Source of the DNA: Treponema sp.
GTDB lineage: Bacteria > Spirochaetota > Spirochaetia > Treponematales > Breznakiellaceae
Direction: 5' to 3'
Assembly (NCBI GenBank): GCA_031266875.1
Contig: JAISAE010000088.1
Location: forward strand, 1-64,000
Length of the DNA stretch: 64,000 nt
In this document: piece after piece, positions 8,190 through 57,510 of the stretch
How the letters are laid out: every line of letters begins with the position of its first letter
Position numbering within the stretch: position 1 is the stretch's first letter
Notes under the pieces: generated by a model
Seen by the model: only the letters and a program-made list of their open reading frames with translations
What the model was told of the DNA's origin: nothing
Databases searched by the model: none
Translations under genes and position numbers: made by a program

Positions 8190-8790
8190 AGTTTCGTTGG
8201 TACCATGTCTCTGGCACCCACGTTGGCACCACACGTCTGACACCATGTCTCTGGCATCAACGCTCACCCATGACACACCATGTCTCTGGCACCACACGCT
8301 CACCCGTGTCTCACCAACGTCTCTGGCACCACATGTCTGGCCCCAACGTCTCTGGCACCCGCGTCCGTTGGCACCACATATCTGACACCAACGTCTCACC
8401 CATAACACACACGTCTGGCACCATGTCTGACACTAACGTCTCTGGCACCAACGCTCACCCATGACTCACCACGTCTCTGACACCACAGGTCTGGTGCCAA
8501 CACCCATGTCTCACTACGTCTCTGGCACCACACGCCCTGGCACCACACGTCCACCACATGTCTGGCACCACACGTTTGACACCAACGTCTCTGGCACCAC
8601 ATGTCTGGCACCATGTCTCTGGCACCAACGCTCCCATATCTCACCAACGTCTCTGGCACCACACGTCTGACACCAACGTCTCTGGCACCACCGCTCACCC
8701 ATGACATACTACGTCTCTGGCACCACACGTCTGACATCAACGTCTCTGACACCAACGCTCACTCATGTCTCACCACGTCTCAAGCCACGT
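8190..8790. repeat. Intergenic irregular tandem repeat (acgtctctggcaccacacgtctgacaccaacg)
   Basis: Dozens of degenerate copies of ctctggcacca / gtctgacacca visible. Confidence 0.92.
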
Positions 8791-12029: not shown

Positions 12030-12450
12030 CAAGCTACATAAACGACTCTCTGAGTAGAACAAACGACGCTCCGAGTAGAACAGGCGACACTCTGAGCAGA
12101 ACAAGCGGGGTTCCGAGTAGAACAAACGACGCTCCGAGCAGAACAAGCGACGCTCTGAGTGGAACAAACGACGCTCTGAGTGGAACAAGCGGAGTTTGGA
12201 GCAGAACAAACGACGCTCTGAGTAGAACAAGCGGGGTTCTGAGTAGAACAAGCGGGGTTCCGAGTAGAACGAGCGATGCTCCAAGCAGAACAAGCGACGC
12301 TCCGAGTAGAACGAGCGACACTCTGAGCAGAACGAGCGACGCTCTGAGTAGAACGAGCGACGCTCTGAGCAGAACAAACGACGCTCCGAGTAGAACGAGC
12401 GGGGTTCTGAGTAGAACAAGCGACGCTCCGAGCAGAACGAGCGGAGTTTA
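12030..12450. repeat. 21-bp tandem repeat array (gagtagaacaagcgacgctcc), ~20 copies
   Basis: Direct inspection; the 21-bp period yields spurious minus-strand ORFs. Confidence 0.95.
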
Positions 12451-12477
12451 GAGTTAGGTTGATCTAGTTCAGAGACA

Positions 12478-12885
12478 TTGGTTGGTGTCAGAGACCATTG
12501 GTTGGTGTCAGAGACGGTTGGTGTCAGAGACATTGGGAGGTGTGAGACAGTTGGTGCCAGAGACGGTTGGTGTCAGAGACATTGGGAGGTGTCAGACAGT
12601 TGGTGTCAGAGATGGTTGGTGTCAGAGACATTGGGAGGTGTCAGACAGTTGGTGTCAGAGACATTGGGAGGTGTCAGACAGTTGGTGTCAGAGACATTGG
12701 GAGGTGTCAGACAGTTGGTGTCAGAGACATTGGGAGGTGTCAGACAGTTGGTGTCAGAGATGGTTGGTGTCAGAGACATTGGGAGGTGTCAGACAGTTGG
12801 TGTCAGAGACATTGGGAGGTGTCAGACGGTTGGTGTCAGAGACGGTTGGTGTCAGAGACATTGGGAGGTGTCAGAGACGTCAATC
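12478..12885. repeat. ~33-bp tandem repeat array (ttggtgtcagagacattgggaggtgtcagacag)
   Basis: Direct inspection; several near-identical copies. Confidence 0.95.
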
Positions 12886-25384: not shown

Positions 25385-26130
25385 CCGCGCCGCCTCTTGG
25401 ACAACGCTCAGAGCATCGACGGACACGCTCTAAGCATCAACGGACGCGCTCGGAACGTCAATGGACACGCTCTAAGCATCAACGGACACGTTCTGAACGT
25501 CGGTGGACACGTTCTGAACGTCAATGGACACGTTTAGAACGTCTATGGACACGTTCTGAACGTCTAAGAAGACTGAAAAAACGTCCCCACAGACGTTCTG
25601 AACATCGACGGACATACTCTGAACGTCAACGGACACGTTCTGAACATCGGTAGACACGTTCTGAACGTCGATGGACACGTTTAGAACGTCGACAGACACG
25701 CTCGGAACGTCGATGGACACGTTTAGAACGTCTCAGAAGACTAAAAAACATTCCCGCAGATACGTTCGGAACGTCAACAGACACGTTCTGAACGTCGATG
25801 GACACGCTCGGAACATCGATGGACACGTTCTGAACGTCTCAGAAGACTGAAAAAACGTCCCCGCAGACGTTCTGAACATCGACTGACACGTTCTGAACGT
25901 CGATAGACACGTTCTGAACGTCGATAGACACGTTTAGAACGTCTCAGAAGACTGAAAAAAACGTCCCCGCAGACGTTCTGAACGTCGATGGACACGCTCA
26001 GAACGTCAACGGACACGTTCTGAACATCGATGGACACGTTCTGAACGTCGACGAACACCTTCCGAACATCGACGGACACGTTCTGAACCTCTCAGAAGAC
26101 TGGAAAAACATTCCCGCAGACGTTCAAAGA
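25385..26130. repeat. ~21-bp tandem repeat array (acgttctgaacgtcgatggac) with interspersed tcagaagactgaaaaaacgtccccgcag blocks
   Basis: Direct inspection; unit contains the inverted repeat ACGTT-CTG-AACGT. Confidence 0.93.
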
Positions 26131-33834: not shown

Positions 33835-34058
33835 AAGCGTAACTCTTCGTGCTTGGGAGTGATTTGCCGATAATCTCAATGTTGAGACGTGGAATACATC
33901 AGTGAACCAATCCTAGAGGGATCAGACAAAGCGGACAGACGCTTAGCGGTTCGGACAGACGAGCTATTTTTACGAGGAGGTCTGCCTAACGGTAGACGGT
34001 GTTTCAGCCCTTGTTTAGGCGGCAGTCTAAAGACTTGGGTCTCCGCGCCGTGGTTTTT

Positions 34059-35183
34059 ATGAGAAAAGTCATACCTATCGTTTTTCTTTTATTATATAGC
34101 CTGCCCCTGTGGGCGCAGAGGCAGGCTGAGCGGCCATACTGGTATAGCCTTGAGCGGGGGAAACAGCTTTTTCGCAATGGAGACTATGGAAACGCGCTCA
34201 TAGCGCTTCAGGACGCGAGGCAGGATCGCCGCGATATGTATACTCGCATGAAAGCCGATATAATCACCCTGCTTTCAATCCCGGAAGTGCGCCGTATGGG
34301 GGATTCGCTTGAACTTATCGAGCCATACATAGTTGAACGCTATCATGTAAACGCCGCCGCCGCGCTTGAGGAAGTGTATTATCGCGTGTCCAAAGCAGCT
34401 ATCAACGGGTCGGCCAATAGGGTACTTGAGGAACTTGACCGTTTGAAGGTGTTTCCTGAAGCCGAATACTGGATCGGTGAAACCTATCGCATGGAAGGCG
34501 AGCTTGGATTAGCCCTCGAACAGTACAAGAAAGCCCATGAACAGCGAGCTTTTCTTGAAAACCCCGCGCTTGATACGGATATCCTGTATAAAATAGTGGA
34601 ACTCCTCAAGATCAAGCAGGAATACAGCGAGATGGAAGCGCGGGCTAGGGAGATACTCACGCAGGATTCCCTGTATTCAGGTTCTACCACTACCTTGATC
34701 GCCATGGCCAGAATACTGACCGAGAGTGGCATTAACCGGTTTTTGACGCTTTACCGGCATCATAACACCGCAACAGAACGGGCATACCAACTCTTGGGCC
34801 TGTATTACTACGACACAGAAGCGCCCAGGCCCGAAGGCTATGCCGCAGACCGGCTTAGTCCAGCGGCTGAACACCTTATGATCGCGTTCCTGAACCAGAA
34901 TACGATTCTGATTCAGGAGCTTATCCGCCGCCAGTACAACTATACCTTTAGTACGCTGGACGCGCTCATCACTGACGCCTATCATAATCCGGTTCTCGTG
35001 GCATATATGGCAGACTATGAATACTTTAAGACGATCTACTATTTTGCAGCCGCGCTCTATGCTGATGGAAAGCCGGTTCTCGGACGGCGGCTTTGGACAC
35101 TTTTGAGTCTTCACCCTGAAGCGGGCGAATGGAGTAAGCGCTCTGCGAATCAGTTGCGAAGCCCTTTCATGGATAAACCTTAG
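34059..35183 (+). CDS. Exported TPR-like protein
   Basis: Signal peptide VFLLLYSLPLWAQ; TPR-like helices (GKQLFRNGDYGNALIALQDA, ELGLALEQYKKAHE). Confidence 0.65.
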   Translation: MRKVIPIVFLLLYSLPLWAQRQAERPYWYSLERGKQLFRNGDYGNALIALQDARQDRRDMYTRMKADIITLLSIPEVRRMGDSLELIEPYIVERYHVNAAAALEEVYYRVSKAAINGSANRVLEELDRLKVFPEAEYWIGETYRMEGELGLALEQYKKAHEQRAFLENPALDTDILYKIVELLKIKQEYSEMEARAREILTQDSLYSGSTTTLIAMARILTESGINRFLTLYRHHNTATERAYQLLGLYYYDTEAPRPEGYAADRLSPAAEHLMIAFLNQNTILIQELIRRQYNYTFSTLDALITDAYHNPVLVAYMADYEYFKTIYYFAAALYADGKPVLGRRLWTLLSLHPEAGEWSKRSANQLRSPFMDKP

Positions 35184-35518: not shown

Positions 35519-36475
35519 ATGAAAAACTATTTTTTTGGTATTGACGGCGGAGGGACACGCTCGCGTATTGCCATTATCAACCGTGCTGGGGAGACGTTTG
35601 CCCATTGTGAGGCAGGTAGCACTAACATCTACTCGGTGTCAGAGGCAATGGTTTTTGAAAACCTCGCGGCGTTGCTGAATGGCGCATTACAGCAGGCGGG
35701 TATAGAACGCGACGCGCTTGCAGGGGGCTGTATCGGCAGCGCGGGACTTTCGCGGCAGCGTGAGCTGGCGCTGTTTCGCGGCTGGTTCGATATGCTTCTG
35801 GGCGCACATGTTCCGGTAAAGCTCTGTACCGACGGCGAAATACTCTTATACGGTGGCCTTGATGGACCTGAAGGCTATTGCCTCATCGCGGGAACCGGCT
35901 CGCTGGCGCTGGCCCGTTCCCGCGACGGCACACTCACGCGGGCTGGAGGCTTTGGCTATCTCTTAGGCGACGAGGGTGCGGCAGCCTGGATCGGCAAGAG
36001 CGCCATTGCCCGCAGCCTGCGAAGTGAAGAGCTGCGCGACCTCCCCACGCGCATGACAGCGGCGCTCCTGTCCGCCTGTACACTCAGTAACAGCTCAGAC
36101 CTGATCCGCTATGTCCATCACGACGCGAACAAGGCTGAGATCGCGGCCCTTGCCCCGCTCGTAACAGCCGCCGCCCGCAACAATGACGCGCTGGCGCTCG
36201 ACATACTGCAAAACAGCGCAACAGAACTGGCGCTCCTCGTGCGCTCGCTCATTGCCCGCACCCCGCATATAACCAACCGGACCCTGGTACTCGCCGGTGG
36301 GGTTATAGAACATGACGAAATCGTCCACCAACACCTGACAGTGCTCTTAGCCGCGGAATGTCCCGATATAGCGCCCATTACCCCTCGCCGGAACGCGCTT
36401 GAGGGCGCGTGCCTGCTGGCCATGTCCACGACAACCCCAGACCTCGCTCCCATCACCTCAACCACACAAGCGTGA
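35519..36475 (+). CDS. BadF/BadG-type ATPase family, N-acetylglucosamine-kinase-like
   Basis: FGIDGGGTRSRIAI, YCLIAGTGSLALA, GFGYLLGDEGAAAWIG. Confidence 0.88.
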   Translation: MKNYFFGIDGGGTRSRIAIINRAGETFAHCEAGSTNIYSVSEAMVFENLAALLNGALQQAGIERDALAGGCIGSAGLSRQRELALFRGWFDMLLGAHVPVKLCTDGEILLYGGLDGPEGYCLIAGTGSLALARSRDGTLTRAGGFGYLLGDEGAAAWIGKSAIARSLRSEELRDLPTRMTAALLSACTLSNSSDLIRYVHHDANKAEIAALAPLVTAAARNNDALALDILQNSATELALLVRSLIARTPHITNRTLVLAGGVIEHDEIVHQHLTVLLAAECPDIAPITPRRNALEGACLLAMSTTTPDLAPITSTTQA

Positions 36476-36775
36476 GGCCTGAGCCATTTGCCCCAGACCT
36501 CGCTCCCATCACCCCAACCACGTCCACGACAATCCCAGACCTCGCTCCCATCACCCCAACCACACAAGCGTGAGGCCTCAGACACGCGCCCCAGACCTCG
36601 CTCCCATCACCTCAACCACACAAACGTGAGGCCTCAGACACGCGCCCCAGACCTCGCTCCCATCACCTCAACCACACAAACGTGAGGTCTGAGACGCTTG
36701 CCCCAGACCTCGCTCCCATCACCTCAACCACACAAACGTGAGGTCTGAGACGCTTGCCCCAGACCTCGCTCAACC
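36425..36775. repeat. 56-bp tandem repeat array (agacctcgctcccatcacctcaaccacacaaacgtgagg...)
   Basis: Direct inspection; the first unit lies in the 3' end of the kinase CDS. Confidence 0.93.
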
Positions 36776-37554: not shown

Positions 37555-38035
37555 AGTCATTTCTGAAATTTTCACACGTACGTCTGGAACTTTCACACGC
37601 ACGTCTGGAGCTTCTACACGCACGTCTGGAACTTTCACACGTGCGTATGGAGATGATACACGCGCATACTGAGCTTTCACACGTGCGTGTGGAGATGATA
37701 AATGTGCGTGCGGAGCTTCTACACGTGCGTCTGGAGCTTTCACACGTGCGTCTGGAGCTTTCACACGTGCGTCTGGAGCTTTCACACGTGCGTGTGGAGA
37801 TGATAAATGTGCGTGCGGAGCTTCTACACGTGCGTCTGGAACTTTCACACGTGCGTCTGGAGCTTTCACACGTGCGTCTGGAGATGATACACACACGTCT
37901 GGAGCTTCTACACGTGCGTGTGGAGATGATAAATGTGCGTGCGGAGATGATACACGTGCGTCTGGAACTTGCGCACGTACGTGCGAATCTTGCACACGTG
38001 CGTCTGGAGATGATACACGTGCGTGTGGAACTTCT
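37555..38035. repeat. 21-bp tandem repeat array (cacacgtgcgtctggagcttt), >20 copies
   Basis: Direct inspection; contains CACGTG palindromes. Confidence 0.95.
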
Positions 38036-38156
38036 AGATATGTCTGTTCGTTACTTGCGGGAACACGGCGCGGGGTCAAATTGTCATGCTGAATACCCAA
38101 AAACCATCCGTAAAGCAAGCGGGGGCAAGGAGAAGCCGCTCTAAGCGCCTCCCACA

Positions 38157-54009: not shown

Positions 54010-54137
54010 GCCCTTATTATCGGTCAGGAATCCCATACCTATATGCCAAGCAGTGCCAGACATCATGCCATGCGGCGCAAGACATATACCAAAAACTCAG
54101 TGAGTTTTTAGTATAAACCACGTGAGTTTTTGGTACA

Positions 54138-54180
54138 AACTCCGTGAGTTTTACTCAAGAACTCACGGAGTTCTTTATTT
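54138..54180 (+). terminator. Perfect 13-bp-stem terminator-like hairpin
   Basis: aactccgtgagtt-ttactcaag-aactcacggagtt followed by ctttatttttt. Confidence 0.65.
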
Positions 54181-54313: not shown

Positions 54314-56662
54314 TTATTCGTAAATGTTCCGGCCTTGGGCGTCAGCAATGCCGGTCTTGCGCCAGAAATAGGTGTTGATCTGGTCACGCCACTCGCGGGC
54401 ATTAGCAAGCTGGCGTTCAAAGCGGGCAAGCACCGGCGAGTAGGTATGCTCATCAAGCCGGTCTTTGAGTCCCTTCCACATTTCAAGCATTTGTTTAACC
54501 TCGTCATAACCCTCGAAGTGAGTATTGTAGATGTTCTGGAGCAGGGTCTTGTTGTTTTTCATAACATAGTCATAGCGAAGCCGGTGGAAAAACAGGATGA
54601 GCTGTTCGGGGCAGGTCGCTGGATCGCCAAAGAACGCGGCATTTTCCGGCGCGTATTGCGTAACATAGCCTGTTCCTGAGCTGGTACGATCAATGCCAAT
54701 GGCAAAGCGGCCGGCGCGGTGGTAGGTTCCCCAGGGAGAAAACTCGTAGCCCTCAATGTTTGGGCCGTAATGCCCAGCCGGTGTTACCATGAAACAAACA
54801 CCAAAAGGCGCGTTGTACTTTTCATAGGCCGGGTAGGAACGGAGCAGAAGCTCAGACACCGTATCCGCGACGCCCGCATCCACAAAGGTGAGTGCGCTCC
54901 ATTCGCGGGCGATTAGCTCCGCGCTAAGACGTGGGTCCCAGCAGAGACGGCCATAACCGTACAGGTTTGCCTGCACCAATGGGTGGCCGGTCCAGTTATG
55001 GTCAAGGCCAACATTAGGAATCGCGCTAACGCCGGCAATCGTGCCAGCAATCAAAAGTTCCCGAAGCGTGGAGCCGCCTTGTACCGCGACACGGAGCGTG
55101 GGCGTTGAGTTGGGATTGTACTGCCTGATTAAGGGGCTGCCCGCGTCATTGGGAAGCCGGTTCCTCACGAGGTCAATCCGGTCCCGTACGTCATTCGCCT
55201 TGGCGTCAAGATCAGAGCCATAATCAAATGTAAGGGTAATCGTACTGCTTTCTTGGGAGGACACGGAACTAATGCTTGAAAGTCCACTCAGGTTTACCAG
55301 CTGCGATTCAAGAAGTTTAGTAACCGCATTCTCAACCGTTTCCGGCCCCACGCCCGCGTAGCTGGTAGTAACCGTAAGGATGGGCATATTGACTTCAGGA
55401 AACATAGTGGAACGTGTAGAACGCGGGTCATGGTGTGTATCAAAGTCAAGTATCTGCTCCCATTTATAAGGAAGATAACAAAGATCGATCTGCTGGCCGG
55501 TGTACTCCTGCGTTACCTGGAGTTCCAGCGTATAGCGGGTTTTGCTCAAAGCGCCGAAGAGCGGGCTGACTGGTTCCAGCACTTGGAAGTCATAGGGGCC
55601 GAACTTTACCTGAAGCAGAACATTATCAGCAAACTCGCCATCAAGCGGTTTGAACATATCGTAGGCTGCCCGCGCCCTATCAATAGACTGATCCCGCCAG
55701 TCTTGAACGCAGTTATACACAAAACAGCGCCATACCAGTTCTCCGCCGTGGGGAGCCAGCGCAGCGGCCACGGCGTTAGCGCCTTCCGCGTGATTACGGC
55801 CATAGTCAAAAGGCCCAGGCTCCATCTCAGAATCAGCCTTCACCACAAAACCGGCTAGGTCAGGGATGTAGCGGTAAATCAGGTCAGCGCGTTCTTTCCA
55901 CCAGTCAATAACACTCGCGTCAAGCGGATCGGCGGTAGGCAGCTTACCCAAGGTATAGGGCGCGCTGAACTTGGCGTTAAGCAGCAGTTTCACGCCAAAT
56001 GGCCGGAACAAGGCGGCAAGCCGCGCCACATCAGGCAGCATGGCCTCTGTGATGAGGAGTTCTCCGGGGCCAGGCCCAAAAATCCCGCCAATGGCAAGCC
56101 GGTTGATACCAATTGAAGCAAGCAGCCGCGCATAATCAATAACGCGCTGTTCGTCATAATCAACACGGCCATTCTTATAGAACAGCGACCTGCCCGCGTA
56201 ACCACGAATCACATCGCCGCTGATGGAGTCCCAGTGCGTGAGTGAACGGAACGGCGTCGCGGGCGCGTCAATAATCTCGGTTCCCACACTGATCTTGCCC
56301 AGCGCCAGCAAAGCGAGGAAACGGTATACTCCATAGAGTGCGCCGGTTTCATCCTGTCCCGCGATAATGATACGGGTGTCAGAGATCCTAATCACAAAGC
56401 CCTCAGTCTTTGTACACGGCAGTTCAAGCCCAAGCCGCTCGTTCAGCACGGGAATTGTCCCGATCAGCGTGCCGGCATCTTTGCCTTCAGCCGCCGCGCT
56501 TAAGACCGCGAAGTTTTTTGTCAAAAGCGCACTCAGTTCCGCCGCCGCGTTTTCCAGAATCAAACTCTGTTCCAGCAGACCAACGCTGCCCAGAAGCCGT
56601 GCGCACGGTACTTCGGCGCGGCGTTGAAACCAACAATCATATTCCTTTATGTTACAAATCAT
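54314..56662 (-). CDS. GH67 alpha-glucuronidase interrupted in frame by an RND-transporter-like segment
   Basis: GH67 motifs VVKADSEMEPGP, DFQVLEPVSPLFG, DHNWTGHPLVQANLYGYGRLCWDP; residues from 55411 to 55073 read as an AcrB-type porter segment. Confidence 0.85.
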   Translation of the reverse strand: MICNIKEYDCWFQRRAEVPCARLLGSVGLLEQSLILENAAAELSALLTKNFAVLSAAAEGKDAGTLIGTIPVLNERLGLELPCTKTEGFVIRISDTRIIIAGQDETGALYGVYRFLALLALGKISVGTEIIDAPATPFRSLTHWDSISGDVIRGYAGRSLFYKNGRVDYDEQRVIDYARLLASIGINRLAIGGIFGPGPGELLITEAMLPDVARLAALFRPFGVKLLLNAKFSAPYTLGKLPTADPLDASVIDWWKERADLIYRYIPDLAGFVVKADSEMEPGPFDYGRNHAEGANAVAAALAPHGGELVWRCFVYNCVQDWRDQSIDRARAAYDMFKPLDGEFADNVLLQVKFGPYDFQVLEPVSPLFGALSKTRYTLELQVTQEYTGQQIDLCYLPYKWEQILDFDTHHDPRSTRSTMFPEVNMPILTVTTSYAGVGPETVENAVTKLLESQLVNLSGLSSISSVSSQESSTITLTFDYGSDLDAKANDVRDRIDLVRNRLPNDAGSPLIRQYNPNSTPTLRVAVQGGSTLRELLIAGTIAGVSAIPNVGLDHNWTGHPLVQANLYGYGRLCWDPRLSAELIAREWSALTFVDAGVADTVSELLLRSYPAYEKYNAPFGVCFMVTPAGHYGPNIEGYEFSPWGTYHRAGRFAIGIDRTSSGTGYVTQYAPENAAFFGDPATCPEQLILFFHRLRYDYVMKNNKTLLQNIYNTHFEGYDEVKQMLEMWKGLKDRLDEHTYSPVLARFERQLANAREWRDQINTYFWRKTGIADAQGRNIYE
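55073..55411 (-). mobile_element. ~339-bp in-frame insertion encoding an RND/HAE1 efflux porter segment
   Basis: MFPEVNMPILTVTTSYAGVGPETVENAVTKLLESQLVNLSGLSSISSVSSQESSTITLTFDYGSDLDAKANDVRDRIDLVRNRLP; flanked by GTGGA at 55068-55072 and 55407-55411. Confidence 0.7.
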
Positions 56663-56735
56663 TCTAACCTCCGTGAATAGCATAACGTAAAGTATGCGCG
56701 TTGCACATAACACAAGTTTGTTCTATTATTATGCC

Positions 56736-57248: not shown

Positions 57249-57510
57249 CCGTAAGGAATTGAGGTCAATTCCAGTAAGGAATGAGAGTCAATTCTAGGAA
57301 GGAATGAGAGCTAATTCTAGGAAGGAATTGAGGTCAATTCCAGTAAGGAATGAGAGTCAATTCCAGTAAGGAATGAGAGTCAATTCTAGGAAGGAATGAG
57401 AGCTAATTCTAGGAAGGAATTGAGGTCAATTCCAGTAAGGAATGAGAGCTAATTCTAGGAAGGAATTGAGGTCAATTCCAGTAAGGAATGAGAGCTAATT
57501 CTAGGATGTT
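57249..57510. repeat. 23-bp tandem repeat (aaggaattgaggtcaattccagt), ~11 copies
   Basis: Direct inspection; some units carry the palindrome GGAATTGA-GG-TCAATTCC. Confidence 0.95.

Follow-up and report, generated by a model that had tools for sequence, protein, structure and literature searches.

Related systems

GH67 alpha-glucuronidases take part in the breakdown of xylan. Solved members include AguA of Geobacillus stearothermophilus (PDB 1l8n/1mqp) and GlcA67A of Cellvibrio (PDB 1gqi), and a GH67 enzyme is also on record for the termite-gut spirochaete Pillotina corrugata (PMC13067680). The gene described here resembles AguA and GlcA67A in its three GH67 Pfam domains and in its catalytic carboxylates. 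It differs from both by an insertion of 116 residues where the catalytic barrel part gives way to the C-terminal part. Over 111 residues this insertion resembles the PN1 subdomain of RND efflux permeases of the HAE1/MdtB-AcrB type (PF00873). It amounts to about one-tenth of a full permease, and lacks the membrane helices, the PN2, PC1 and PC2 subdomains and the proton-relay residues. No GH67-RND chimera was found in the literature on related topics, in a search not aimed at such a chimera by name.

A comparable event is the double illegitimate recombination described during natural transformation in Acinetobacter (Huelter and Wackernagel 2008, doi 10.1111/j.1365-2958.2007.06096.x, cited in PMC8116780). 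As that work is represented in the citing paper, the two cases are alike in that a heterologous segment is joined without long homology at either end. The Acinetobacter case is experimental, whereas the present one is deduced from a single natural sequence and includes a target duplication and filler.

The interrupted GH67 gene

The window is a stretch of 64,000 nucleotides from a draft Treponema genome (2.60 Mb, 112 contigs, 82.7% complete). The gene lies at 54314–56662 on the minus strand and encodes 782 amino acids. Within its open reading frame (54314–56713, minus strand), Pfam profiles match Glyco_hydro_67N (E 3e-7), 67M (E 2e-119) and 67C (E 1e-82) collinearly, as the preliminary description of a GH67 alpha-glucuronidase would have it, and orthologues occur at the same locus in three congeners. 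An ACR_tran (PF00873) match sits between 67M and 67C in the same frame. The N, middle and C-terminal domains are therefore in order while the fold between the latter two is interrupted, and the frame is open throughout, with zero internal stop codons. A GTG at 56713 is the mechanical choice of the ORF caller as start. The ATG at 56662, the start that had been proposed, is preferred, being preceded by a GGAGG-like site and agreeing with the starts of the congeners.

The N-terminal and catalytic part extends over 55416–56662 (minus strand). In a phmmer alignment to 1mqp/1l8n, residues E285, D364 and E392 of the G. stearothermophilus enzyme, which we take to be the catalytic Glu, Asp and Glu of GH67, correspond to E296, D375 and E403 of this protein (799-aa numbering). 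These conserved carboxylates precede the insertion by ~30 residues or more. The insertion point falls in a loop region matching residues 418–437 of solved GH67, with no aligned residues there. The C-terminal part (Glyco_hydro_67C; 54314–55072, minus strand) is identified by Pfam and is 89–90% identical to the congeners at the amino acid level.

In three congeners (G002, G003 and G004) the GH67 gene at this locus runs without interruption, and its product is 84–90% identical in amino acids on either side of the insert. The fourth (G001) has no GH67 match. A second GH67 gene was not detected in the draft genome, at its 82.7% completeness, and no relative sharing the fusion appeared when the fusion protein was searched against 101 genomes, or the insert against 203 genomes of the family. 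Because three congeners keep the gene uninterrupted in the same place, the insertion is, by this comparison of sequences, derived in this lineage.

The inserted segment

The RND-like segment (55073–55405, minus strand) encodes 111 amino acids and corresponds to PF00873 profile positions 34–143 of 1021 (E 5e-24 to 2e-25). A structure model of the insert, built with three RND relatives (mean pLDDT 65.5, moderate confidence), predicts one complete porter subdomain, PN1, with a beta-alpha-beta-beta-alpha-beta arrangement. Foldseek searches with this model return MexB, AcrD, AcrB and MdtB (probability 1.00, TM ~0.75). An AlphaFold model of the whole fusion made without an alignment is uninformative (pLDDT 34). 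Sequence similarity to RND proteins is present over the PN1 region, and the segment lacks both the 12 membrane helices and a complete set of porter and docking domains. Both the profile and the fold support the original reading of the insert as the N-terminal porter region of an AcrB/HAE1-type RND protein. As judged from the sequence, the case for homology far beyond chance, on both flanks as well as in the insert, is overwhelming. The term 'domain insertion', also used in the preliminary description, is apt to the extent that the piece matches a single RND porter subdomain in its entirety; any function for it would be hypothetical.

Borders of the insertion

The nucleotide match of the host gene to G003 and G002 ends at 55416 and restarts at 55072; the two matched stretches of the subject overlap by 5 bases, and the net gain is therefore 348 nt, or 116 amino acids. 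The protein alignment agrees with this length (116 inserted columns), and the GH67 of the three congeners reads PRS|TLREL at this locus with no insert. The empty sites are CGTTCTACGCTTCGG (G003), CGTTCCACGCTTCGG (G002) and CGTTCTACCCTTCGA (G004). On the minus strand the occupied site consists in order of host sequence ending in CCGCGTTCTAC, filler ACGTTCCACT, RND sequence from ATGTTTCCTGAA to GTACAAGGCGGC, and host sequence beginning with TCCACGCTTCGG. Comparison with the empty sites defines a left host junction repeat, TCTAC (55416–55420, minus strand), and a right one, TCCAC (55068–55072, minus strand), which together form an imperfect repeat.

The 10-nt filler (55406–55415, minus strand) contains the octamer CGTTCYAC of the host once more. 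By chance, such a copy within the filler has a probability of ~0.002, and the 5-nt junction repeat one of ~0.016. The RND similarity spans ~55405–55073, beginning exactly at an ATG at 55405 and finishing at about GTACAAGGC. Close RND relatives carry ATTGAT-like codons ahead of this ATG, and the filler stands there instead. The filler is therefore unlikely to be pump sequence, and the replacement of these codons accounts for the exact start of the similarity.

Previously the insert had been given as 339 bp (113 amino acids) bounded by GTGGA on both sides, with collapse of the two copies rejoining GH67 in frame. The length has to be revised to 348 nt because all three congeneric genes read PRS|TLREL. 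The GTGGA/TCCAC pair does exist, but it is not the ancestral joint. Since the host repeat is TCTAC/TCCAC and is accompanied by the 10-nt filler, a collapse of GTGGA would still leave three residues (STR) too many and would not restore the ancestral site.

Origin of the insert

In the assembly the insert occurs once. The genome has two complete RND genes, which share only ~42–43% identity with it, and the best RND relatives in the four congeners are 42–44% identical. For this stretch, RND genes in other genera of the family reach 60–70% identity at the protein level and, at best, 73% at the DNA level. The subfamily to which these belong occurs in many genera of the family and was not detected in the genus of this genome. 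A tree of RND segments places the insert inside the subfamily clade with no closer placement. The nearest named records are Treponema metagenome genomes, presumably from termite guts given their isolate names. A donor within the same genome had been envisaged, but no matching pump gene is present in its contigs (82.7% complete draft), and none was found in the four congeners. Viral contigs gave no match to either the GH67 or the RND part, and among the best plasmid matches there are only RND genes ~40% identical to the insert.

From these comparisons we infer that the fragment derives from the pump gene of another spirochaete. Two points run counter to a foreign origin. The ~17% of this genome that is missing could hold the donor gene, and the third-position GC of the insert (0.59) is nearer to that of the host gene (0.59–0.62) than to that of the sampled RND relatives (0.67–0.73).

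The lineage-specific ratio of nonsynonymous to synonymous changes (N:S) in GH67 on this branch is 30:29, compared with 113:159 in 14 neighbouring genes (p 0.20), a comparison that demonstrates neither decay nor selection. A comparison of GH67 alone, giving 30N:28S on this branch versus 19N:38S in the sister, looked raised. Relaxed selection had been considered as independent proof of the insertion; it was dropped because this branch shows raised values in the neighbouring genes too, from which GH67 does not differ significantly. Free drift would give an N:S of ~2.5–3. The observed ratio is far from such complete relaxation, which suggests that the event is probably recent.

Probable mechanism

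Based on these observations, the explanation that we tend to favour is a recent, lineage-specific illegitimate recombination by which ~333 bp from the RND gene of a foreign spirochaete came to lie in the sole GH67 gene detected in this termite-gut Treponema-like genome. The junctions with microhomology and filler, and the empty site in relatives, are both features of such an event. DNA from another spirochaete would have entered the cell, a ComEC-type uptake channel being encoded, and the fragment would have been joined at, or copied into, the CGTTCYAC site via only 5–8 nt of microhomology. The joining would have duplicated target bases and left 10 nt of filler from the host. With sense orientation and frame both retained, the reading frame stayed open and the insertion could be tolerated. 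In the product, a whole PN1 module, probably able to fold by itself, would sit in a loop shortly past the catalytic residues. Alpha-glucuronidase activity is most likely lowered or abolished, and the only GH67 detected in the genome is probably impaired.

Searches for Ku in this genome and two congeners found none. Together with the presence of ComEC, this makes Ku-dependent end joining less plausible than a capture of incoming DNA in the course of replication or repair. The 5-nt target repeat, the host-derived filler, the single copy and the lack of notable inverted repeats fit illegitimate recombination or template switching, and not transposition. However, sense orientation and retention of both frames would occur by chance in only ~1 in 18 cases, which hints at selection over accident.

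If the insertion is real, the locus gives a very early view of the in-frame insertion of a fragment across genes, and probably across genera, while three sister species still show the empty site. It would also allow the study of how illegitimate capture makes chimeric proteins in uncultured gut spirochaetes, and of how a domain-sized piece is tolerated when in frame.

Alternative explanations

The preliminary description had allowed for either a genuine insertion or an artefact. The GH67-RND chimera is present in this assembly, and the comparison with congeners shows the insertion to be derived. That a chimeric join in the assembly or library, from a metagenome or an amplified genome, placed a foreign RND piece into an intact GH67 gene is disfavoured, although it keeps an appreciable minor probability. 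The fragmentation of the draft (112 contigs) and its incompleteness are consistent with an artefact, as are the absence of the donor gene from the assembly and the fact that the only close relatives of the insert are in other termite-gut spirochaete genomes, possibly from the same sample. The junction homologies are also as short as those in chimeric molecules. However, de Bruijn graph joins need overlaps longer than 5–8 nt, which means that actual molecules would have to carry the junctions, and two separate non-homologous joins would have to return to the same host position with zero host bases lost. In addition, both reading frames are retained, and the 70 kb contig is otherwise collinear with the congeners over long stretches. 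No other such join occurs in the ~211 kb over which this genome was aligned with G004, where this is the only insertion of at least 100 nt within a reading frame in either direction. Were it an artefact, the locus would serve as a warning about chimeric proteins in draft metagenome genomes.

The alternative to an impaired enzyme is an adaptive domain insertion, in which the fusion is made and active and PN1 is kept for a new property of GH67, such as a binding surface or oligomerisation. This would agree with an insert that makes up an entire RND subdomain, predicted to fold as beta-alpha-beta-beta-alpha-beta, that lies in a loop where the alignment to solved GH67 is empty between 418 and 437, and that leaves the catalytic residues conserved and the frame open; the N:S ratio, without clear relaxation, is also compatible. 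However, the fusion is confined to a single genome among the 101 and 203 searched, and PN1 ordinarily works only within a membrane trimer. We regard this possibility as unlikely. Unlikely too, and slightly more so, is a natural functional enzyme in which a glycoside hydrolase acquired PN1, a subdomain of ferredoxin-like fold, in one of its loops by horizontal capture and has retained it under selection. If a functional reading were true, transporter subdomains could serve as portable modules in soluble enzymes.

Transposition of a mobile or repetitive element carrying the segment is very improbable. The 5-bp target-like duplication flanking the insert is reminiscent of such an event, but this duplication is imperfect, notable terminal inverted repeats are lacking, the insert is single-copy in the assembly, and it encodes an RND fragment alone with no transposase or other recombinase gene. 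A family-specific GH67 loop that only resembles RND is virtually ruled out, since the GH67 of congeners and of other genera has no extra domain at this site and the RND match is strong in both sequence and fold.

Other features

One GH67 relative (L022, G026:C124) has a long open frame of 862 aa, with an in-frame TGA within its C-terminal match. Just downstream of the GH67 gene in the window is an intergenic repeat (54081–54178, plus strand) composed of GTGAGTTTTTAGTACAAAC-like units, which occurs at many sites in the congener genomes, most of them in G002. Rfam gave no match in the window. A sequence of ~110–150 bp (33918–34068, plus strand) overlaps the start of the reading frame at 33999–35183, and has copies at ~80% identity on several congener contigs. 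Between 16851 and 25426 (minus strand) there is a row of five genes for BspA-type leucine-rich-repeat proteins, made of 66-bp repeats; LRR_5 was matched in all four of the reading frames tested. Minisatellite arrays, with units of ~15–105 bp, occur at 8202–8781, 12040–12875, 25398–26111, 36420–36771, 37570–38036 and 57251–57506, mostly between larger reading frames. Sequences like the arrays at ~8.3–8.8 kb and 12.5–12.9 kb are present in dozens of copies in the congener G003.
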